A stretch of 51,386 nucleotides of DNA from Deltaproteobacteria bacterium. GTDB lineage: Bacteria > Desulfobacterota > Desulfarculia > Desulfarculales > Desulfarculaceae. Position numbers and translations under genes: made by a program. The stretch spans positions 1 through 51,386 of the forward strand of contig JAJZPI010000007.1 of assembly GCA_021811275.1 (NCBI GenBank), given 5' to 3'. The notes beneath the pieces were generated by a model. The model saw only the letters and a program-made list of their open reading frames with translations. It was not told the origin of the DNA and ran no database searches. Position 1 is the stretch's first letter. Every line of letters starts with the position of its first letter. Positions 4,538 through 51,282 of the stretch are shown here, in pieces.

Positions 4538-4879
4538 ATGGCTCAAGACAAGCGCGCCCTCTTCTGCGTATTCAAGCCCGAGCGACTCAAGACCACCGAG
4601 GAGATGCGCGAGTGGTTTTCCGGCAGCTACCAGCGCTTCCTGGAAATGCCCGCGGTGGAGTTCAAGACCTGGTGGGTGGATAAGGAGGCCGGCGAGTGGG
4701 GGGCCTTCTACGTATTTCGTTCAGACCGGGAGTTGCGGGACTACCTGACCTCCGACACCTGGCTCAAGGTGGTGCCGGAGAAGTACGGCTGCACCCCCAC
4801 CTGGCGGGTGCTGGAGCCGGCCCTGATCATCTCCAAGGCGGCGATCACCGCGATGGCCGGCTCCTGGCAAAGCGCCTGA
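4538..4879 (+). CDS. YdhR-like ferredoxin-fold (Dabb-type) protein
   Basis: A 113-residue soluble protein resembling the YdhR family of small alpha/beta-barrel proteins, sometimes annotated as monooxygenases. Comparable features are an N-terminal strand (ALFCVFKP), a central FKTWWVDKEAGEWGAFYVF segment, a DYLTS turn and a terminal LEPALIISKA stretch. The start ATG at 4538 has GGAG ten bases upstream; an in-frame ATG at 4472 has no ribosome binding site. It is divergent from the XRE regulator and may share its operator region. It lies 23 bp before the GlcF-like gene, so the two may be co-transcribed. No catalytic function can be assigned. Confidence 0.6.
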   Translation: MAQDKRALFCVFKPERLKTTEEMREWFSGSYQRFLEMPAVEFKTWWVDKEAGEWGAFYVFRSDRELRDYLTSDTWLKVVPEKYGCTPTWRVLEPALIISKAAITAMAGSWQSA

Positions 4880-4902
4880 GACCCGGCAGGAGCGTTCCTA
4901 GA

Positions 4903-6141
4903 GTGCCTGAGCCTGACCACGACATGCCCGGCCCCACCCCATCCAGCGGGCTGGACCAATGCGTCCAGTGCGGGGCCTGCATGCAGGTCTGCCCGGTCTA
5001 CCTGGCAGGCCGGCGCGAGGAGTACTCGGCCCGGGGCAAGCTGCGTCTGTTGCGGGGACTGCGCGACGGCCTCCTGGCCCCGGACCGCGAACTGGGCAAG
5101 GCGCTGGGCCGCTGCCTGCTCTGTGGCCGCTGTTCGCACAACTGCCCCAGCGGGGTCCCGGCCCGCGAGGAGGTGCAGGCGGGCAGGGCCCGCCTGGCGG
5201 CCCTGGCCGGCGCTGCCATGGCCAAGCGGCTGCTCTTGGAGGGCGCGCTGTCCCATCCCCGCCGCATGGACGGACTGGCCCGGAGCGGGGCTCTGGTCCA
5301 GGGCGTGGCGCGGGCATTGATTCCCGCCTCCAGCGGGCTCAACCTGCGCCTGCCCGGGTCGGATGAGTTGCGCGGATTGCCCCCCCTGGCCCGCGAGCCC
5401 TTTCTGGCCCAGGCCCCGCGCCGAATAGCCGGGCCCAAGGGATCGCCGCGCCTGGGCCTCTTCGTGGGCTGCGTGACCAACTACCTGAGGCCGGGCCTGG
5501 CCCAAATGGCGACGCGCCTGCTGAGCAGGATCGGCACCGTAATCATTCCCTCCCAGGGCTGCTGCGGCCTGCCGGCTCTGAGCGCCGGCCTGGGTGAGGT
5601 CGCGGCGCGCCTGGCCGGGGATTTCTCCAGGGCCTTCGCCCTGGCCAGGGTGGACAAGGTGGTCACGGTCTGCGGCTCCTGCGCCTGGACCCTGGCGCGC
5701 GAGGTTCCGGCCTTGGCCGGGGCCGGGCGGGACAAGACCTCTTTCCCGGAGGTGCTGGAGATCAGCCAGGTCCTGGCTGAACATCCACGCCTGTTAAAAG
5801 GCCTTGGCGGTGAGCGCCGGCCCGTGGCCTTGCACGACCCCTGCCACCTCAAGGTCGGCCTGGGGGTGCACGAGGAACCCCGGGCCGTGCTCCGAGCCGC
5901 CGATGTGGACATGGCGCCCCTGTCCCGCGCCGACGCCTGCTGCGGCGGGGGCGGACTCTTCAGCCTTGACGAGCCCGGCCTGAGCCAGGCCGTCTTCCAG
6001 GAGCGGGCGGCGGACTTCGCCTCCTCGGGTGCGGCCGTCCTGGCCACCAGCTGTAGCGGCTGCTATCTGCAATGGAAGCTGGGGCTGGGGGAATCGGCGC
6101 GGGTGGCGCATCCCCTGGAGTTGCTGGGCGAGCCGGCCTGA
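4903..6141 (+). CDS. GlcF-like iron-sulfur subunit, 2x[4Fe-4S] plus two CCG domains
   Basis: A 412-residue protein of the glycolate oxidase iron-sulfur subunit / heterodisulfide reductase D family. Two [4Fe-4S] ferredoxin motifs lie at the N-terminus (CVQCGACMQVCP and CLLCGRCSHNCP). Two CCG cysteine-rich domains follow: GCVTNY...GCCGLP and DPCHLK...ACCGGGG. Such proteins carry electrons from an FAD-linked lactate or glycolate dehydrogenase to the membrane pool. No FAD partner (GlcD/LldE type) is adjacent, so the physiological partner is unknown. The GTG at 4903 is chosen because AGGAG lies ten bases upstream; the ATG at 4924 is too far from it. Confidence 0.85.
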   Translation: MPEPDHDMPGPTPSSGLDQCVQCGACMQVCPVYLAGRREEYSARGKLRLLRGLRDGLLAPDRELGKALGRCLLCGRCSHNCPSGVPAREEVQAGRARLAALAGAAMAKRLLLEGALSHPRRMDGLARSGALVQGVARALIPASSGLNLRLPGSDELRGLPPLAREPFLAQAPRRIAGPKGSPRLGLFVGCVTNYLRPGLAQMATRLLSRIGTVIIPSQGCCGLPALSAGLGEVAARLAGDFSRAFALARVDKVVTVCGSCAWTLAREVPALAGAGRDKTSFPEVLEISQVLAEHPRLLKGLGGERRPVALHDPCHLKVGLGVHEEPRAVLRAADVDMAPLSRADACCGGGGLFSLDEPGLSQAVFQERAADFASSGAAVLATSCSGCYLQWKLGLGESARVAHPLELLGEPA

Positions 6142-6191
6142 TTCCTTCGCCGGCCCACATGCATCATCCCCGGCCCGCATGATCAATGCCA

Positions 6192-6210
6192 GTGCATATT
6201 TTTTTTGCAC
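6192..6210. promoter_or_regulatory. Inverted repeat, candidate enhancer site for the ZraR-like activator
   Basis: GTGCA (6192-6196) and TGCAC (6206-6210) flank a nine-base T-rich spacer. The repeat lies about 145 bp upstream of the sigma-54 -24/-12 elements, a typical distance for an activator binding site. The assignment to the adjacent regulator is inference from position. Confidence 0.4.
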
Positions 6211-6338
6211 CGCCTTGGGGCGCAGGATAGTTTTTATGCGCTCCGGTCCCGCCCCGCGCCAGCCGGCCGGCCAAGCCAACAAACTCAACCAACCGCAACG
6301 ACAGGACTCTTTCGTTAACGCCTGCCTCTCGGCCCGGC

Positions 6339-6354
6339 TGGCACGCCTGATGCT
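6339..6354 (+). promoter_or_regulatory. Sigma-54 promoter of the zraP-like gene
   Basis: TGGCACG at 6339-6345 and ATGCT at 6350-6354 match the sigma-54 consensus TGGCACG-N4-TTGCW with one mismatch. The invariant GG (6340) and GC (6352) doublets are 12 bases apart, as required. Transcription would start near 6365, about 55 bases before the ATG. It fits the sigma-54-dependent activator encoded two genes downstream. Confidence 0.75.
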
Positions 6355-6420
6355 TTATTCCCGGGCAAGAAACGAACGCTTTTTACGAAAAAGGCATTCA
6401 AACCCCAAGGAGGCAGTATC

Positions 6421-6903
6421 ATGAAGAAGTTCGCTAGCGTGATAGCGGCCCTGGCCCTGGTGGCCGGTTTCAGCACCTTCGCCCTGGCCGCCCCCGGCAT
6501 GGGCCCCGGCTATGGCCCCGGCTACGGCTGGACCCAACTGACCCCCGAGCAGCAGGCCCAGGCCGAGAAGGCTCGGGCTGATTTCCTGAACGAGACCCAG
6601 GCCCTGCGGCAGAAGCTGGCCACCAAGCGGGTGGAGCTGAACACCTTGCGGGCCCAGGCCAACCCTGACCCGGCCAAGCTCAAGGCCGTGGCGGACGAGC
6701 TGGTGGATCTGGGCGCCCAGCTGGCCAAGAAGCGCAACGAGTTCATGGCCAAGTACCCCTACGCCTTTGGCCCCGGCTTCGGGCGCGGTTACGGCCGCGG
6801 CTTCGGCGGCGGCTTCTGTGGCGGCCCCGGCTACGGCATGGGCTTAGGCGGCGGCATGGGCATCGGCTCAGGCCCGATGATGGGCCCCGGCGGCACCTAC
6901 TAG
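6421..6903 (+). CDS. zraP: Periplasmic ZraP/Spy-like metal-stress protein
   Basis: A 160-residue exported protein. A clear Sec signal peptide (MKKFASVIAALALVAG, cleavage near ALAAP) precedes a Gly/Pro/Tyr-rich linker, a coiled LTPEQQAQAEK helical domain of the ZraP/CpxP/Spy type, and a Gly-, Phe- and Met-rich tail ending GSGPMMGPGGTY. ZraP-type proteins are periplasmic zinc-binding chaperones that damp the partner kinase. The ribosome binding site AAGGAGG is strong. It is followed directly by a histidine kinase and a sigma-54 response regulator, giving the zraP-zraS-zraR order, though here all three genes are co-directional. One Cys in the tail (GFCGGP) is unusual. Confidence 0.85.
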   Translation: MKKFASVIAALALVAGFSTFALAAPGMGPGYGPGYGWTQLTPEQQAQAEKARADFLNETQALRQKLATKRVELNTLRAQANPDPAKLKAVADELVDLGAQLAKKRNEFMAKYPYAFGPGFGRGYGRGFGGGFCGGPGYGMGLGGGMGIGSGPMMGPGGTY

Positions 6904-6929
6904 CCCTCCACGGCCTACTAGGCTAGAAT

Positions 6930-6959
6930 CAGGGCCGGGGCCGTCAAGCCCCGGCCCTG
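6930..6959 (+). other. Perfect 12-bp hairpin between zraP-like and kinase genes
   Basis: CAGGGCCGGGGC (6930-6941) and GCCCCGGCCCTG (6948-6959) form a perfect stem with a six-base loop in the 96-bp gap. No U-run follows, so it is not a standard intrinsic terminator. It may slow read-through or protect the 3' end of the upstream mRNA, giving more periplasmic protein than kinase. Confidence 0.7.
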
Positions 6960-6999
6960 GTTCGCTGGACGACACGTCAAAGAACACTTGGAGCAGGAA

Positions 7000-8556
7000 A
7001 TGACTGCCACCGCCCGCCAGGGAAAGCCCAGGGACATTCTGCCCTGGTTGATGCTGGCGGGGGTGCTCTTCCTGCTCCTGACCGCCTTGGGTCTGACCAC
7101 CCACAACCGGCTGGCGCGCACCCAGGATTTGATGACCCAGCAACTAAGCCAGCACGGCTCCCTGCTGCTGCAATACCTGGAGAGCGCCACCCGGGCCAGC
7201 ATACGCCAAGGGCTTTTGCGCTCCTTCCCCCTGCAGACTCTTGCCGAGGAACTGATCGACCAGCAACAGGTGCGGGCCCTGGCCATCCTGGGTCCGCACG
7301 GCGAAGTGATCGCCGCCGCCGAGGCCGGCGCGGGCGATGCCCAGGCCTCCCCGGAAAAAGCTGTGGACCCCCTGGCGGGCTTGAGCGAAGCCATGCGCCA
7401 AGCTGTGGCCGCCCATCAGCCCATAACCGGCATCGCGGGCAAGGAGCTGGTGGTGGGCCGCCCCTTCGAGCCCCTGCGCCGCTTCATGCGGCCGGGCCGG
7501 CCCCTCCCGCCCTGGGCCCGCTCCCTGATAGAGGAGCACAGGGAGAAGGAGTCCGGCCAAGAGAACCAAGGGCAGCAGTGCCCGCCCCCCCCGCCCCCCA
7601 GCGATGAACGGCGGGGCATGGGCTTCCGCATGCATACCATGATGATGTTTCCTGGCTGGCTGATGGGCCCCGCCGGCCCCGAAGGAGCGGAAGGCTTGAA
7701 GCCTTACGCCCTGGTGCGCCTTTCCACCGCCACCCTGGAAGAGGCCAGGCGCCAGGACCTCAGACAGGCGGTGGTCCTGGCCGCGATAATCTTCGTGGGG
7801 GCGGGTCTGGTTTCGGTGGCGGTGCTGGCCGCGGCGCGCCACCGCGGGCGCGAGCTGGAGCGCTTGCGTGCGGAGGTGGCGGAAAGCGAACACCTGGCCG
7901 CGGTGGGCCGGCTGGCCGGCTCGGTGGCCCACGAGGTGCGCAACCCGCTTTCGGCCCTGCGCGGACTGGTGCAGTTTTTGGCCAAGGGCCAGGAACCGGG
8001 CTCCAAGCAGGCCGAGTACGCTTTAGTGGCGGTGGAGGAGGTGGACCGCCTGGAGCGGGTGGTCTCCGGGCTTTTGGAATACACCCGGCCCCGTCCGCCG
8101 CGGCTGTTTCCCCTGGACGTGGGCGAATCTTTAAAGAGCACCCTGGAGCTGATGCGCGACGACCCCCGCGCCCAGGGCCTAGACCTGCGGGTGAAGGTGC
8201 AGGAGGACCTGCCGGCGGCTACCGCCGACCCCGATCAGATACGCCAGGTGCTGGTGAACCTGGTGGTCAACTCCCTGGAGGCCCTGAACGGGCGCGGAAG
8301 CTTGATTCTTTCCGCCAGGCTGGGCAAGGGCGAGGTGGTGGTGGAGGTGGCCGACGATGGGCCAGGCCTGCCCGAGGGCACGGCCGAGCAGGTCTTCGAC
8401 CCCTTCTTCAGCACTCGCGAGCGCGGTTCCGGCCTGGGCCTGGCCATCGCTCGCCGCATCGTGTTGGCCCACGGCGGCCGGATCAAGGCCGCCAACCGGC
8501 CCGAGGGTGGGGCGGTCTTCACCTTCACCTTGCCCCTGGACGGAGCCAAGTCATGA
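7000..8556 (+). CDS. zraS: ZraS-like membrane sensor histidine kinase
   Basis: A 518-residue kinase. One membrane helix near residues 17-35 is followed by a periplasmic sensor of about 200 residues, a second helix (LAAIIFVGAGLVSVAVLAAA) and a cytoplasmic HisKA/HATPase_c transmitter. The phospho-accepting His311 lies in SVAHEVRNPLSALRG; the N box (NLVVNSLEAL), DDGPGLPEG and GSGLGLAIA complete the ATPase domain. The periplasmic domain ends in a Pro run then a Met/His cluster (MGFRMHTMMMFPGWLMG) that could bind soft metals. ATG 7000 has GGAG six bases upstream; an in-frame TTG at 6988 is less likely. It overlaps the regulator gene by four bases (ATGA). Confidence 0.92.
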   Translation: MTATARQGKPRDILPWLMLAGVLFLLLTALGLTTHNRLARTQDLMTQQLSQHGSLLLQYLESATRASIRQGLLRSFPLQTLAEELIDQQQVRALAILGPHGEVIAAAEAGAGDAQASPEKAVDPLAGLSEAMRQAVAAHQPITGIAGKELVVGRPFEPLRRFMRPGRPLPPWARSLIEEHREKESGQENQGQQCPPPPPPSDERRGMGFRMHTMMMFPGWLMGPAGPEGAEGLKPYALVRLSTATLEEARRQDLRQAVVLAAIIFVGAGLVSVAVLAAARHRGRELERLRAEVAESEHLAAVGRLAGSVAHEVRNPLSALRGLVQFLAKGQEPGSKQAEYALVAVEEVDRLERVVSGLLEYTRPRPPRLFPLDVGESLKSTLELMRDDPRAQGLDLRVKVQEDLPAATADPDQIRQVLVNLVVNSLEALNGRGSLILSARLGKGEVVVEVADDGPGLPEGTAEQVFDPFFSTRERGSGLGLAIARRIVLAHGGRIKAANRPEGGAVFTFTLPLDGAKS

Positions 8557-9914
8557 GTCAAGGCCAGACCATTCTGGTGGTGGACGACGAACGCGCCCAC
8601 CGCGTGATGCTCAGGGCGCACCTGGAGGACGCCGGCTACCAGGTGTTGGAAGCCGCTGACGGTGAGAAGGCCCTGGAGGCCGCGGCCAGCCAGACCGTGG
8701 ACCTGGTGCTGATGGACGTGGTCATGCCCCGACAGGACGGCATGGCCACCCTGCCCCGCCTGCGCGCCCTCCTGCCTGCCACGCCCGTCCTGATGATGAC
8801 CGCCTACGGCAGCATCGAGAGCGCGGTGGAGGCCCTGAAGGGCGGGGCCGAGGATTATCTGCCCAAGCCCCTGGACATGGAGGAGGTGCTGATAAAAATA
8901 CAGCGCCACCTGAAGGCCGCGGGCCTGGCGCGCCGGGTGCAGGACCAGGCCGAGCGGCTGGGCGAGCGCTTCGACTTCTCGGCCTTGATAGGCCAGAGCC
9001 CGCCCATGCTCAAGCTCAAGGAAACCCTGTCCGTGGTGGCCCCCTCCGAAGCCACGGTGCTCATCACCGGCGAAAGCGGCACCGGCAAGGAGGTCGCGGC
9101 GCAGATCATTCACCAGAACAGCCGCCGCCAGGACGGCCCCATGGTCAAGATCAACTGCGCGGCCCTGCCCGAGAGCCTCCTGGAATCGGAGCTATTCGGC
9201 CACGAGAAAGGGGCCTTCACCGGCGCGGTGGCCAGGCGCGAGGGCCGGCTCAAGGCCGCCGACACCGGCACCATGTTTCTGGACGAGATAGGCGAGATGA
9301 GCCCCTCCACCCAGGCCAAGCTCCTGCGCGCCCTCCAAGAGGGCGAGTACACGCCCCTGGGTTCCAACAAGGTCTACAAGGCCGACGTGCGGGTGATCGC
9401 GGCCACCAACCGCGACCTGACCCAGGCGGTCAAGGACGGCCAGTTCCGCGAGGACCTTTACTACCGCCTCAACGTGGTGAACATCGAGATGCCGCCCCTG
9501 CGCGCGCGCGGGGAGGACATCATGGCCCTGGCCGAGCACTTCCTCAAGAGCTTCAATCAGAAGAACCACCGCGACCTGCGCGGCTTCACCCCCGAAACCC
9601 GTCAAAGGCTCCTGGCCCACCCCTGGCCGGGCAATGTGCGCGAACTGATCAACGTGGTCGAACGGGCGGTGATCATGGCCCCGGGCCCGCTTATCGAGGC
9701 CGGCGACTTGCCGGCGCCCCTGCAGGACGGCGGCGCAGGCGGCCGGGCCGAATTGCGCGCGGGCATGACCATAGAGGACATGGAACGGGCCCTGATCGAG
9801 CGCACCCTGGAGGCCACCGGCGGCAACCGCACCCAGGCCGCCGAGATGCTGGGCATCACCCGCAAGACCCTGCAAAACAAGATCAAGGAGTACGGCCTGC
9901 CCCCGGCGGAATAG
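8553..9914 (+). CDS. zraR: ZraR-like sigma-54-dependent response regulator
   Basis: A 453-residue NtrC-family activator. Residues 1-120 are a receiver domain with D11, D12 and phospho-acceptor D55 (LVLMDVVMP). Residues about 140-380 are the AAA+ domain with Walker A GESGTGKE, the sigma-54 contact loop GAFTGA and Walker B MFLDEIGEM. The C-terminus is a Fis-type helix-turn-helix (NRTQAAEMLGITRKTLQNKI). It should activate the sigma-54 promoter found upstream of the zraP-like gene after phosphorylation by the adjacent kinase. Translational coupling through the ATGA overlap is likely. Confidence 0.95.
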   Translation: MSQGQTILVVDDERAHRVMLRAHLEDAGYQVLEAADGEKALEAAASQTVDLVLMDVVMPRQDGMATLPRLRALLPATPVLMMTAYGSIESAVEALKGGAEDYLPKPLDMEEVLIKIQRHLKAAGLARRVQDQAERLGERFDFSALIGQSPPMLKLKETLSVVAPSEATVLITGESGTGKEVAAQIIHQNSRRQDGPMVKINCAALPESLLESELFGHEKGAFTGAVARREGRLKAADTGTMFLDEIGEMSPSTQAKLLRALQEGEYTPLGSNKVYKADVRVIAATNRDLTQAVKDGQFREDLYYRLNVVNIEMPPLRARGEDIMALAEHFLKSFNQKNHRDLRGFTPETRQRLLAHPWPGNVRELINVVERAVIMAPGPLIEAGDLPAPLQDGGAGGRAELRAGMTIEDMERALIERTLEATGGNRTQAAEMLGITRKTLQNKIKEYGLPPAE

Positions 9915-46849: not shown

Positions 46850-46877
46850 TTTACAAACCTAGGTGTTGTGCTAGGAT
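46850..46877 (+). promoter_or_regulatory. Sigma-70 promoter of the putative Kdo8N operon
   Basis: TTTACA (46850-46855), 16 bases, TAGGAT (46872-46877), 69 bp before the first ATG. Five of six and four of six consensus matches. Confidence 0.55.
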
Positions 46878-46946
46878 CAGGGGCGCGGTCCGCGCGGGCC
46901 CGGCGCGCCATCCAACACCACCAGCCCGGCGACGGGGGAATCAAGA

Positions 46947-48113
46947 ATGAACCAGCTATTTACTCATGAAGGCATCCGCCGCACCGTCTTCGGCCCCGGC
47001 TGTTCGGCCAAGCTGGCCGAAGAGGTCAAGCTACTGGCCGGCTCCCGGGCCCTGGTGGTGATCGATCCCCATGTCCTGGCCGCCGGCGTGGCCGGCCCGG
47101 CCCTGGAGGCCCTTGGCCAGGCCAAGATCAAATACGAGACCTACAGCGCCATCACCCGCGAGCCGGAGCCAGCCGAGGCCGACGAGGCCGCCCGCCTTGG
47201 CCGCGAGATAAAGGCCCAGGTGGTGGTGGGCATCGGCGGCGGCAGCGCCCTGGACTTGGCCAAGGCCGCCTCGGCCCTGATCGCCAACGAGGGCTCGGCC
47301 GTGGACTACGTGGGCCTGGATCTGCTCAAGAAGGCCGGCCCCCCGGTGATCTGCCTCCCAACCACCGCCGGCACCGGCAGCGAGGTCACCTTCACCGCCG
47401 TGTTCACCCGCCGCGCCGACAAATTCAAGGGCGGAATCAACGGCCGCCTGCTCTATCCCCACACCGCCATGCTCGACCCCAAGCTCACCGTGACCTGCCC
47501 GCCCTACATCACGGCCATCGTGGGCATGGACGCTTTGACCCACGCCATGGAGGCCTACACCAGCCGGGCGGCCACCCCCGTCAGCGACCTGAACGCCCTG
47601 GCGGCCATCGAGCTGATCGGCGACAACCTGCGCCAGGCCGTGGCCCACGGCGAGAACCTTCAGGCCCGCGAGGGCATGCTCCTGGGCTCCTACCTTGCCG
47701 GGCTGGCCCTGGCCCAGGCCGGAGTGGGCGCGGTCCACGCCATGGCCTACCCCCTGGGGGCCTTCTTCGACATCCCCCACGGCGAGGCCAACGCCACCTT
47801 GCTGCCCTTCGTGCTGCGCCACAACCTCATCGCCTGCCCGGACCGTTTCGCCAGCATGGCCTACGCCCTTGCCGAGCTGCCCGAGGATCTCACCACCCGC
47901 GAAGCCGCCGAGGCCTGCGTGGCCGAGGTCATGGAGCTGTCCCTGGACATCGGCATCCCCCAGAGCCTGAACGAACTCAAGGTGCCCCAGAACCAGGTGC
48001 CGGCCATGGCGGCCAAGGCCATGACCGTGGCCCGGCCCATCGCCAACAACCCACGCAAGGTCGACGCCGGCGACCTGGAGAACATCTACCGCGAGGCCTT
48101 CGAGGCCGAGTAG
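46947..48113 (+). CDS. Iron-containing alcohol dehydrogenase, KdnB-like
   Basis: A 388-residue group III Fe-dependent alcohol dehydrogenase. NAD-binding GIGGGSALDLAKAAS, TTAGTGSEVT, and metal ligands D and H in MDALTHAMEAY plus His in GVGAVHAMAYPLGAFFDIPHGEAN are intact. In Shewanella oneidensis KdnB, with aminotransferase KdnA, turns Kdo into 8-amino-3,8-dideoxy-Kdo by oxidising the C8 hydroxyl. Here an aminotransferase gene and kdsB follow at 23 and 18 bp, the same gene trio. The KdnB role is inferred from that context; other alcohols cannot be excluded by sequence alone. Confidence 0.82.
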   Translation: MNQLFTHEGIRRTVFGPGCSAKLAEEVKLLAGSRALVVIDPHVLAAGVAGPALEALGQAKIKYETYSAITREPEPAEADEAARLGREIKAQVVVGIGGGSALDLAKAASALIANEGSAVDYVGLDLLKKAGPPVICLPTTAGTGSEVTFTAVFTRRADKFKGGINGRLLYPHTAMLDPKLTVTCPPYITAIVGMDALTHAMEAYTSRAATPVSDLNALAAIELIGDNLRQAVAHGENLQAREGMLLGSYLAGLALAQAGVGAVHAMAYPLGAFFDIPHGEANATLLPFVLRHNLIACPDRFASMAYALAELPEDLTTREAAEACVAEVMELSLDIGIPQSLNELKVPQNQVPAMAAKAMTVARPIANNPRKVDAGDLENIYREAFEAE

Positions 48114-48136
48114 CCCAAACCAGGGAGCAAGCGACC

Positions 48137-49324
48137 ATGCCCGGATTCGAGTGGCTAGACGACAAGGAGACCCAGGCCCTGGTGGAAGTCATGAACCGGG
48201 GCATCCTCTTCCGCTACGACATGCCCCCGGGCCGGGGCAAGTACGTCGAGGAGTTCGAGAAGACCTTCGCCTCCTATACCGGCTCGCGCTTCGCCCTGGC
48301 CGTGACCAGCGGCTCGGCCGCGCTCAAGGTCGCGCTCGCCGCTCTGGGCGTGGGGCCGGGCGACGAGGTCATCACCCAGGGCTTCACCTTCGTGGCCACC
48401 TGGGAGGCCATCTTCGACTGCGGGGCCAAGCCGGTCTTCTGCGAGGTGGACCAGACCCTGTGCATGGACCCCGAGAGCATGCGCTCCAAGATCACCCCCC
48501 GCACCCGCTGCATCATCCCCGTGCACATGATGGGGGCCCAGGCCAGCATCGCCCAGATCAAGGCCATCGCCGACGAGCGCGGCATCCCCGTCCTGGAAGA
48601 CACCGCCCAGGCCGTGGGCTGCACCTTGAACGGCAGGCACGTGGGCACCAGCGGGGCCTTCGGCACCTACAGCTTTGACGCCGTCAAGACTCTCACCACC
48701 GGCGAGGGCGGCATGCTCGTCACCGACGACGAGGGCCTCTTCCAGAACGCCAGCGAGTATCACGACCACGGCCACGACCACAAGCCCGTGGGCCGGGGCA
48801 ACGAGGGCCGGCGCTTCATCGGCTTCAACTTCCGCATGATGGAGCTGCAGGGGGCCCTGGGCCTGGTGCAGCTGGCCAAGATGCCCAAGATGGTGGAGAC
48901 CTACCGCCACCACAAGAACGCCCTCAAGGAGGCCCTGGCCCGAGTGCCGGGGCTGACTTTCCGCGAGGTTCCCGACGCCGCCGGCGACTCGGCCACCTTC
49001 CTGACCTGGTTCATGCCCGACGTCGAGGCCGCCGGCCGCATGGCCGCCATCCTGGCCGAGCACAACGCCGGGGCCATCCCCTGGGGCAAGAACACCTGGC
49101 ACAATTTCGCCCGCTGGGAGCACCTGCACGCCGGGGCCACCCTGCACAAGGGCGGCTGGCCCTTCGAGCGTCTGGAGGGCTATTCCTCATACTCACCCGA
49201 GGACCTGCCGGCCACCCGGGACCTGCTGGCCCGCTGCCTCTCCTGGCAGATCATGCTGAACTGGGACGAGGCCAGGCTCCAGCAGATGACCGAGGCGGTC
49301 AACCACGTGGTAGCGGCCTTTTAA
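48137..49324 (+). CDS. DegT/DnrJ/EryC1 aminotransferase, KdnA-like
   Basis: A 395-residue PLP sugar aminotransferase. The Schiff-base Lys lies in SFDAVKTLTTGEGGM; other marks are TSGSAALKVALAALG, EDTAQAVGCTLNG and FNFRMMELQGALG. The N-terminus MPGFEWLDDKE resembles, from memory, the Kdo8N enzyme KdnA. It would aminate the C8 aldehyde or ketone made by the adjacent dehydrogenase using glutamate. Many DegT homologues act on UDP-sugars; only the flanking dehydrogenase and kdsB single out Kdo. GGGAG lies ahead of the ATG. Confidence 0.85.
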   Translation: MPGFEWLDDKETQALVEVMNRGILFRYDMPPGRGKYVEEFEKTFASYTGSRFALAVTSGSAALKVALAALGVGPGDEVITQGFTFVATWEAIFDCGAKPVFCEVDQTLCMDPESMRSKITPRTRCIIPVHMMGAQASIAQIKAIADERGIPVLEDTAQAVGCTLNGRHVGTSGAFGTYSFDAVKTLTTGEGGMLVTDDEGLFQNASEYHDHGHDHKPVGRGNEGRRFIGFNFRMMELQGALGLVQLAKMPKMVETYRHHKNALKEALARVPGLTFREVPDAAGDSATFLTWFMPDVEAAGRMAAILAEHNAGAIPWGKNTWHNFARWEHLHAGATLHKGGWPFERLEGYSSYSPEDLPATRDLLARCLSWQIMLNWDEARLQQMTEAVNHVVAAF

Positions 49325-49342
49325 CGGGGGGCGGATGCGAGC

Positions 49343-50089
49343 ATGGGCCTCTACGTCATCATCCCCGCGCGCTACGGCTCCAGCCGCTTTCCGGGCAAGC
49401 CCCTGGTCATGATCAACGGCCGGCCCATGATCCAGCACGTCATGGAGAGGGCCGGCCAGGCCGCCGGGGTGGCGATGGTGGCCGTGGCCACCGACGACGA
49501 GCGCATCGCCAGCGCCGTGGAGGCATTCGGCGGCCGGGCGGTGATGACGCCCGCCGCGCTCCGCACGGGTTCCGACCGGGTGGCCGCCGCGGCCCAGGCC
49601 CTGGGCGTGGACGACGACGACTTGGTGGTCAACGTGCAGGGCGACCAGCCGCTGCTGCCGCCGGAGGTGATAAACGAAACGGCCCTGCCGCTCAGACACG
49701 AGCCTAAAATCAACATGTCCACCCCGGTGGTGGCCATAACCCGCCCCGAGGAGATCGGCGACCCCAATCACGTCAAGGTGGTCATGGACGAATGGGGCAA
49801 CGCCTTGTACTTCTCCCGACAGGCCATCCCTTTCCCCCGCGACGGCGGCGAGGTCACCTACTTCAAGCACCTGGGGGTCTACGTCTACCGCAAGGCATTC
49901 CTGGACGTCTTCGCGAGCCTGCCCACCGGACGCCTGGAGAACCTGGAAAAGCTTGAGCAGATCCGGGTGCTGGAGGCGGGCCACCGGGTGCGCTGCGTGG
50001 TCACCCAGTTCGACTCGCCGGAGGTGGACCGGCCCGAGGACGCCCGCCGGGTAGCCGACCTGATGAACCGAGCCCGCCAGGACTGGTAG
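49343..50089 (+). CDS. kdsB: 3-deoxy-manno-octulosonate cytidylyltransferase (CMP-Kdo or CMP-Kdo8N synthetase)
   Basis: A 248-residue KdsB. It couples Kdo to CMP for LPS inner-core synthesis in the cytoplasm. Motifs: IPARYGSSRFPGKPL, VATDDERI, TGSDRVAAA, VNVQGDQPLLPP and HLGVYVYRKAFL. Length is normal. In Shewanella the KdsB in this gene trio prefers Kdo8N over Kdo; whether this one does cannot be told here. It is third in the operon. A+T-rich DNA with the next promoter follows. Confidence 0.95.
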   Translation: MGLYVIIPARYGSSRFPGKPLVMINGRPMIQHVMERAGQAAGVAMVAVATDDERIASAVEAFGGRAVMTPAALRTGSDRVAAAAQALGVDDDDLVVNVQGDQPLLPPEVINETALPLRHEPKINMSTPVVAITRPEEIGDPNHVKVVMDEWGNALYFSRQAIPFPRDGGEVTYFKHLGVYVYRKAFLDVFASLPTGRLENLEKLEQIRVLEAGHRVRCVVTQFDSPEVDRPEDARRVADLMNRARQDW

Positions 50090-50227: not shown

Positions 50228-50773
50228 ATGGCTTATCCAAATGTGACCGGAGATCTGCTATTGTTTCTATCTATCAAACCACACTCCAAGGACTTGGGAG
50301 TCTGGCTTTACGCCCTAGCCCGCCTGGGCCTGGGCGCGGTCTTCCTCTATGCCGGCCTGGCCAAGCTCCTTGATGTCGGCGCCTTCGCGCGGGTGATCTC
50401 CCAACACGACCTGGCCCCGGCCTGGGCCCTGTCCCCCCTTGCCCTGGGCCTGCCGCTGCTGGAACTGGCCGCCGGCCTGGGCCTGGCCCTGGAGCTCCGG
50501 GGCGGCCTGGGTCTGACCACGGCCCTGCTCGTCCTGTTCGTGGCGGTGTTGTGGTTCGGCATCCTCAGGGGCCTGGAGGCGGACTGCGGCTGCTTCAGCC
50601 CCGAGGAAATGGGAGAACACGACAGCCTGCGCCAGGCCATGATACGCGACCTGGTAATGCTGGCCGCCGCCGGCTACATGCACCTCTGGCGGAGAGGGCG
50701 GCGGCCCTCGCCAACAGAACGCGGTTGGTTCCGGCCATGGGGCCGGCCGCAGATGAAGGAGAAGGTTCGCTGA
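50228..50773 (+). CDS. MauE/DoxX-like membrane protein
   Basis: A 181-residue membrane protein with about four helices: LARLGLGAVFLYAGLAKLLD, ALSPLALGLPLLELAAGLGLAL, LTTALLVLFVAVLWFGILRGL and LVMLAAAGYMHLW. The ADCGCFSPEE motif after helix 3 is typical of MauE, a protein linked to disulfide formation and maturation of methylamine dehydrogenase, and of its DoxX-like relatives. No mau genes are near. Its stop overlaps the ATG of the periplasmic rhodanese gene (TGATG), so they likely act in a common sulfur or thiol process. Start uncertain: no clear ribosome binding site. Confidence 0.75.
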   Translation: MAYPNVTGDLLLFLSIKPHSKDLGVWLYALARLGLGAVFLYAGLAKLLDVGAFARVISQHDLAPAWALSPLALGLPLLELAAGLGLALELRGGLGLTTALLVLFVAVLWFGILRGLEADCGCFSPEEMGEHDSLRQAMIRDLVMLAAAGYMHLWRRGRRPSPTERGWFRPWGRPQMKEKVR

Positions 50774-51282
50774 TGAAATTGCGTAAGGTTGTCGGCGTAG
50801 CCCTGGCGGCCATGGCCGCGTGCGTCCTACTGGCCGGACAGGCTCTCGCCTTTGGTACTAAGGAATTGGACAACGAGAAGCTGGTTGTCAACTTCCACAG
50901 TGAAGCGACCCGAGGCGCCTACAAGGTGGTGGACACCGCCACGCTCAAGAAGTGGATCGACGAAAAGAAGCCCATGCTCATCGTCGACACCATGCCTTAT
51001 GAGGACAGCTACAAAAAGCAGCACATCCCCGGCGCGGTGCAGATGGAGTTCCCCATCCCCGAGCTGACCCAGCTCGACGCCGCCAAAAAGGCCGAACTGG
51101 AGAAGCTCCTTGGCCCGGACAAGGGACGCCTGATCGTGTTTTACTGCGGCTTCCCCAAGTGCACCCGCAGCCACAACGCCGCCATGTGGGCAGTCAAGCT
51201 GGGCTACACCGACGTGTACCGGCATCCTGGCGGCATCAAGGCCTGGGACGAGTCCGACTATCCGGTGGAACGAGGCAAATAA
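50773..51282 (+). CDS. Periplasmic rhodanese-domain protein
   Basis: A 169-residue exported protein. Signal peptide KVVGVALAAMAACVLLAG with cleavage near ALAF, then one rhodanese domain: LKKWIDEKKPMLIVDTMPYEDSYKKQHIPGA, and the active-site loop IVFYCGFPKCTRSHNAA with Cys at the persulfide position and a second Cys four residues later. The domain ends HPGGIKAWDESDYPVE. It may transfer sulfur or reduce/oxidise thiols in the periplasm with the coupled MauE-like protein. The signal peptide and the ATG overlap decide the start. Confidence 0.88.
   Translation: MKLRKVVGVALAAMAACVLLAGQALAFGTKELDNEKLVVNFHSEATRGAYKVVDTATLKKWIDEKKPMLIVDTMPYEDSYKKQHIPGAVQMEFPIPELTQLDAAKKAELEKLLGPDKGRLIVFYCGFPKCTRSHNAAMWAVKLGYTDVYRHPGGIKAWDESDYPVERGK

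Follow-up and report, generated by a model that had tools for sequence, protein, structure and literature searches.

Does an operon from an anaerobic bacterium encode the synthesis and activation of 8-amino-3,8-dideoxy-Kdo (Kdo8N), and which enzyme would take the first step? Kdo8N has been called a hallmark of Shewanella (PMC6357163), and its dehydrogenase KdnB is listed as the FeADH3/cd08184 enzyme of that genus (PMC5125639). The DNA analysed here, called the window, is an entire contig (C11) of 51,386 nucleotides, taken from a genome of 3.95 Mb that is 98% complete and whose nearest named relatives are Desulfarculaceae, in the phylum Thermodesulfobacteriota. It contains the following features:

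46850..46877, + strand: putative operon promoter, sigma-70-like, TTTACA-16-TAGGAT with an extended -10 TG, a consensus match only
46947..48113, + strand: iron-type alcohol dehydrogenase (FeADH), reading frame of 388 amino acids, Pfam Fe-ADH/ADH_Fe_C
48137..49324, + strand: KdnA, 8-amino-3,8-dideoxy-Kdo transaminase, reading frame of 395 amino acids, N-terminus MPGFE, Pfam DegT_DnrJ_EryC1
49343..50089, + strand: KdsB, CMP-Kdo/CMP-Kdo8N synthetase, reading frame of 248 amino acids, Pfam CTP_transf_3

The Pfam matches of all three proteins are far over cut-off, and the intergenic gaps are 23 bp between FeADH and KdnA and 18 bp between KdnA and KdsB. An earlier note on this DNA had described just such an operon, with the same MPGFE start and gaps, in a likely anaerobe, and both descriptions hold, the lineage being anaerobic. 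Its claim of one promoter is weakly supported: there is a single sigma-70-like site upstream, but it matches the consensus at 9 of 12 positions, and 0.4 such sites are expected in the scanned stretch. The order FeADH-KdnA-KdsB recurs in the family, at about 65-79% identity, and in other Desulfobacterota, at about 50-60%, and is thus not due to chance. A phosphofructokinase gene is divergent from the operon. Downstream of it (50228-51282) are encoded a membrane protein of the MauE/DoxX type and a protein that has a rhodanese domain and an apparent signal peptide; the two are likely to form a periplasmic sulfur or redox pair.

The best PDB match of the DegT protein is KdnA of S. oneidensis (5k8b), over the full length and with 309 bits, against 162 bits for the second-best family, ArnB. 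In a quick tree with ArnB and seven further DegT proteins encoded by this genome, the KdnA group is separated with a support of 98; scores and tree thus place the protein with KdnA rather than with the UDP-sugar clades, the grouping that the earlier note had proposed to check. The PLP lysine is K184, and R26, Y27, R33, E90, M131, D181, T185, D210, H213, H215, W321 and W327 are among the KdnA-specific residues, that is, residues that are fixed in the KdnA of both Desulfobacterota and Gammaproteobacteria but seldom occur in other DegT proteins. By all these marks the operon aminotransferase is KdnA, as had been claimed, and it is predicted to carry out the glutamate-dependent amination of 8-oxo-Kdo.

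The first gene had been taken for KdnB, and this is the one identification that fails. FeADH scores 270 bits against 1,3-propanediol dehydrogenase (3bfj) and 74 bits against KdnB (5k8c). In an IQ-TREE phylogeny of 85 rows, KdnB is a single clade (100/100), and the FeADHs linked to kdnA form a separate one (96/85); FucO, the dehydrogenases of 1,3-propanediol and methanol, and a paralog encoded by the window's genome fall on the side of the latter. These scores and clades rule out KdnB (cd08184) as a name for the protein. The equivalogs that give its best NCBIfam matches, ErcA, sulfoacetaldehyde reductase and lactaldehyde reductase, are rejected too, all being far below cut-off. The protein retains the metal ligands D195, H199, H264 and H278 as well as the GGGS motif. 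In this phylogeny, FeADH forms an iron-ADH clade of its own, bound to kdnA and distinct from KdnB.

One could still suppose that FeADH is a KdnB that evolved fast, in which case we would be looking at a plain Shewanella operon. The long internal branches of the tree would allow it, as would the pocket residues common to both enzymes that are described below, but the two clades are well separated, with FucO and its like on the FeADH side, and the same phylum has true KdnBs, with 61-63% identity to those of Gammaproteobacteria: we regard this supposition as very improbable.

The solved structures nearest to FeADH are those of the FucO / PduQ / DhaT-type dehydrogenases (1RRM, 3BFJ), with which it has the metal ligands and the NAD motif in common. 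In FucO, the substrate pocket is lined by Asn151, Val153, Val164, Val166, Phe254, Leu259 and Cys362, the backbone of Thr144 contacts a substrate analogue, and His267 is bound to the catalytic water (PMC10324492; residue numbers there are those of the RefSeq protein plus 1). FeADH differs at the positions of Asn151, Val164, Val166, Phe254, Leu259 and His267, and it belongs to the context of a Kdo operon, whereas these enzymes belong to that of diol metabolism. Three of the codons concerned are:

47394..47396, + strand: codon of Thr150, at the position of FucO Asn151
47439..47441, + strand: codon of Asn165, at the position of FucO Val166
47748..47750, + strand: codon of Tyr268, in place of FucO His267, near the catalytic water

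At 150, 163, 165 and 268, the window FeADH has the Thr, Gly, Asn and Tyr of the KdnB-type pocket: Thr150, Gly163, Asn165 and Tyr268 are the same fixed residue in the FeADH clade (n=37) and in KdnB (n=18). Such shared fixed residues occupy 4 of the 9 FucO pocket positions, versus 4 of 323 other columns (p = 1.7e-5, columns taken as independent). Thr150 is found in 37/37 members of the FeADH clade, in 18/18 KdnBs and in 4% of other iron-ADHs; Asn165 in every group of dehydrogenases partnered with KdnA and in 0/26 other iron-ADHs; Glu72 in all such groups with data and in 1/26 others. The likeness of the two pockets may stem either from convergence or from an old shared state. KdnA relatives in Gottesmanbacteria (L055:4824-7167) and in a gammaproteobacterial MAG (L058:1239-3638) have as partner yet another, third kind of iron-ADH, which falls in neither the KdnB nor the Desulfobacterota clade and still has Glu72, Gly95, Gly163, Asn165 and Tyr268.

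The same residues bear on the substrate. Relatives of KdnA and of KdnB also occur in clusters with NeuB-type synthases, and the KdnA relatives of these clusters are sister to the Desulfobacterota group, branching between Desulfobacterota and Shewanella KdnA (89, SH-aLRT only, quick tree); clade membership alone would consequently not settle the substrate. FeADH and the aminotransferase could then act on another ulosonic acid, for example a nonulosonate, with KdsB a mere neighbour that activates ordinary Kdo. However, the partner in the family is always KdsB, not NeuB. The window KdnA has the Shewanella-type residue at eight positions (Y27, V183, H215, G221, D280, D284, F288 and N319), at which its relatives in NeuB-type surroundings or in surroundings without KdsB have, for the most part, other residues. 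Position 268 of the dehydrogenase is Tyr in KdnB and Ala in the KdnB relatives of NeuB clusters, so that FeADH, by its Tyr268, and KdnA, by Y27, H215, G221 and F288, match the forms linked to Kdo. Another ulosonic acid is thus, in our judgement, an improbable substrate, and Kdo the preferred one.

The KdnB-like proteins with Ala at the position of Tyr268 are those of L053, L054, L063 (about 4800-9300), L057, L118, G002:C40 and G003:C156 (L172, L167). In L053, L054 and L063 the neighbours are a KdnA relative, a glycosyltransferase, a NeuB-type synthase and a CTP transferase, and the G002 copy is partnered by a more distantly related DegT protein; these clusters suggest that the chemistry of oxidising and then aminating is reused on a nonulosonic acid. 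KdnA relatives are also found in single-cell Prochlorococcus genomes (L060, L062). A KdsB match is lacking in the genome of L060, which makes another substrate likely for its KdnA relative.

How widespread is the operon? That the pathway occurs outside Shewanella had been put forward before, and this even understates the case: KdnA is present in 17 of 19 relatives within the family, both exceptions being assemblies that are 70-71% complete, in many Desulfobulbales and in some other Gammaproteobacteria. FeADH lies directly upstream of kdnA in 23 of 51 KdnA loci, all 23 from Desulfobacterota and often with kdsB downstream, and it adjoins kdnA in nearly all family relatives that have KdnA. By this census, the FeADH clade is tied to kdnA across the Desulfarculaceae and many Desulfobulbales relatives. 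A search for plasmid-borne kdnA found none at 1e-60. An open frame of 5798 residues around one gammaproteobacterial kdnA was discarded as a masked run of N. In nine loci of Desulfobulbaceae and Desulfocapsaceae without FeADH (L027, L030, L033, L037, L038, L040, L042, L047, L051), kdnA follows panC, sometimes panC-panD, pantothenate genes with no obvious link to LPS.

Among KdnA-bearing Desulfobacterota, a true KdnB, 61-63% identical to the gammaproteobacterial one, is found in 11 of the 18 genomes in which kdnA has no FeADH next to it, and in none (0 of 36) of those in which it does. The corresponding Fisher value, 3e-7, overstates the evidence, because the sequences are not independent, and the count runs over assemblies of varied completeness. 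The window's own genome was searched and has no KdnB; reciprocally, the genomes of three isolates that use KdnB (Desulfopila aestuarii, Desulfobulbus elongatus and Desulfogranum marinum) have no close relative of FeADH, the best match being at about 41%. On a quick KdnA tree, there are three changes of oxidase type, and the genomes that use KdnB fall into two distinct groups lying within those that use FeADH: FeADH and KdnB appear to have been exchanged at least two times among Desulfobacterota. Seven KdnA genomes, some of them incomplete assemblies, have neither FeADH beside kdnA nor a visible KdnB, which tells against the proposed substitution. G002 and G003, of the same genus, have a KdnB-like dehydrogenase (45%), which we count apart because the G002 copy adjoins a DegT gene and a probable NeuB gene. 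A distant member of the Desulfarculaceae, G011, has a divergent KdnB relative (L173, G011:C67:36500-46500), transcribed divergently from waaA and near kdsD; its kdnA-kdsB pair is on a different contig.

This distribution also bears on whether FeADH belongs to the pathway at all. Among solved structures, its closest relatives are dehydrogenases of 1,3-propanediol and methanol, which counts against the proposed role, and its nearest characterised relatives act on small aldehydes and alcohols; it might thus be an alcohol dehydrogenase of general function whose place in the operon is incidental, Kdo being oxidised by another enzyme. But a single FeADH clade accompanies kdnA across several families, in a pattern complementary to that of KdnB, which the window's genome lacks. 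In G007, where kdnA and kdsB are linked, FeADH is retained about 50 kb away (75% identity), apparently still beside phosphofructokinase. The clade also has the KdnB-type pocket. A general dehydrogenase is quite improbable on these grounds, and we retain FeADH as the candidate Kdo 8-dehydrogenase.

There remains the third gene. The window KdsB scores 223.6 bits on TIGR00466, for a curated cut-off of 155.2, and, like E. coli KdsB and KpsU, it is a full-length member of the KdsB family. The link between KdnA and KdsB that had been claimed is borne out, and the second, ordinary kdsB that was to be looked for elsewhere is absent from the window's genome, searched as a whole: a protein on contig C94 is a more distantly related cytidylyltransferase that stays under every KdsB cut-off, and a match on C207 reaches 36 bits only. 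The operon KdsB, being the only copy, should be the source of the CMP-sugar used for lipid A. The genome also has one KdsA over cut-off and two proteins with a WaaA domain, so that the genes of a Kdo8N pathway that were looked for, namely the trio, KdsA and the WaaA-domain proteins, are found in one genome, with FeADH as the presumed 8-oxidase.

In a quick tree whose deep branches are loose, the window KdsB groups near other KdsBs linked to kdn genes, including two gammaproteobacterial ones that come from KdnA-KdnB-KdsB operons, and not with E. coli KdsB, from which it also differs at one residue:

50012..50014, + strand: codon of KdsB Asp224, Asp being fixed in KdsBs linked to kdn genes

Asp224 is found in 37/37 such KdsBs of Desulfobacterota and in 2/3 gammaproteobacterial ones. 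The KdsB of G053 has it too, though it groups with relatives that lack KdnA and bear Ile or Val. As a candidate contact to the 8-amino group, and a candidate determinant of a preference for Kdo8N over Kdo, Asp224 is a lead only, since five unlinked or other KdsBs likewise carry Asp at this position.

Assuming that the three enzymes act in sequence, FeADH would take the role of KdnB and turn the C8 hydroxyl of Kdo into an aldehyde, NAD+ being the probable acceptor; KdnA, by orthology, would convert the 8-aldehyde to the 8-amine by transamination; and KdsB, by homology, would activate the sugar with CTP, for a WaaA-type transferase encoded elsewhere to add it to lipid A. In the related Desulfobulbales, a true KdnB would take the oxidation step instead. 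On the genomic evidence, we hold it quite likely that the operon makes CMP-Kdo8N in this way, with FeADH as a Kdo 8-dehydrogenase that substitutes for KdnB, followed by KdnA and the sole KdsB. Since all the Kdo of lipid A must pass through this only KdsB, an inner core made wholly or for the most part of Kdo8N is expected, and Kdo8N is predicted in the LPS of these bacteria. The altered surface charge and antibiotic response put forward in the earlier note would be further predictions. The earlier note was thus right on the pathway and wrong on one enzyme, and the new point is an exchanged first enzyme in a known pathway.

To our knowledge, Kdo8N has so far been reported only from Shewanella; none of the seven papers found to mention it has a title on Desulfobacterota. 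Compared with the kdnA-kdnB-kdsB cluster of Shewanella oneidensis (5K8B, 5K8C), the window operon is alike in its full-length KdnA, its KdsB, its iron-type dehydrogenase and the pocket residues of the latter; it differs in the order FeADH-KdnA-KdsB, in a dehydrogenase that comes from another clade, and in its host, from a lineage of anaerobic sulfate reducers. The exchange of the first enzyme bears on the electron acceptor of KdnB, oxygen or NAD: the 2013 study of Gattis reportedly proposed that KdnB uses molecular oxygen rather than NAD(P), and a structure study of 2016 is said to have found NAD(H) tightly bound in it. That sulfate reducers have both the true KdnB and its FeADH stand-in speaks for an oxygen-independent reaction in vivo, with NAD or some other acceptor.

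It is reasonably probable that there exists a second Kdo 8-dehydrogenase, not a KdnB by descent and evolutionarily interchangeable with it, and that Kdo8N, made with no need of oxygen, is standard in the inner core throughout an entire lineage of anaerobic sulfate reducers. If true, amino-Kdo would be the usual sugar of the inner core in major anaerobic groups, comprising most Desulfarculaceae and many Desulfobulbales.
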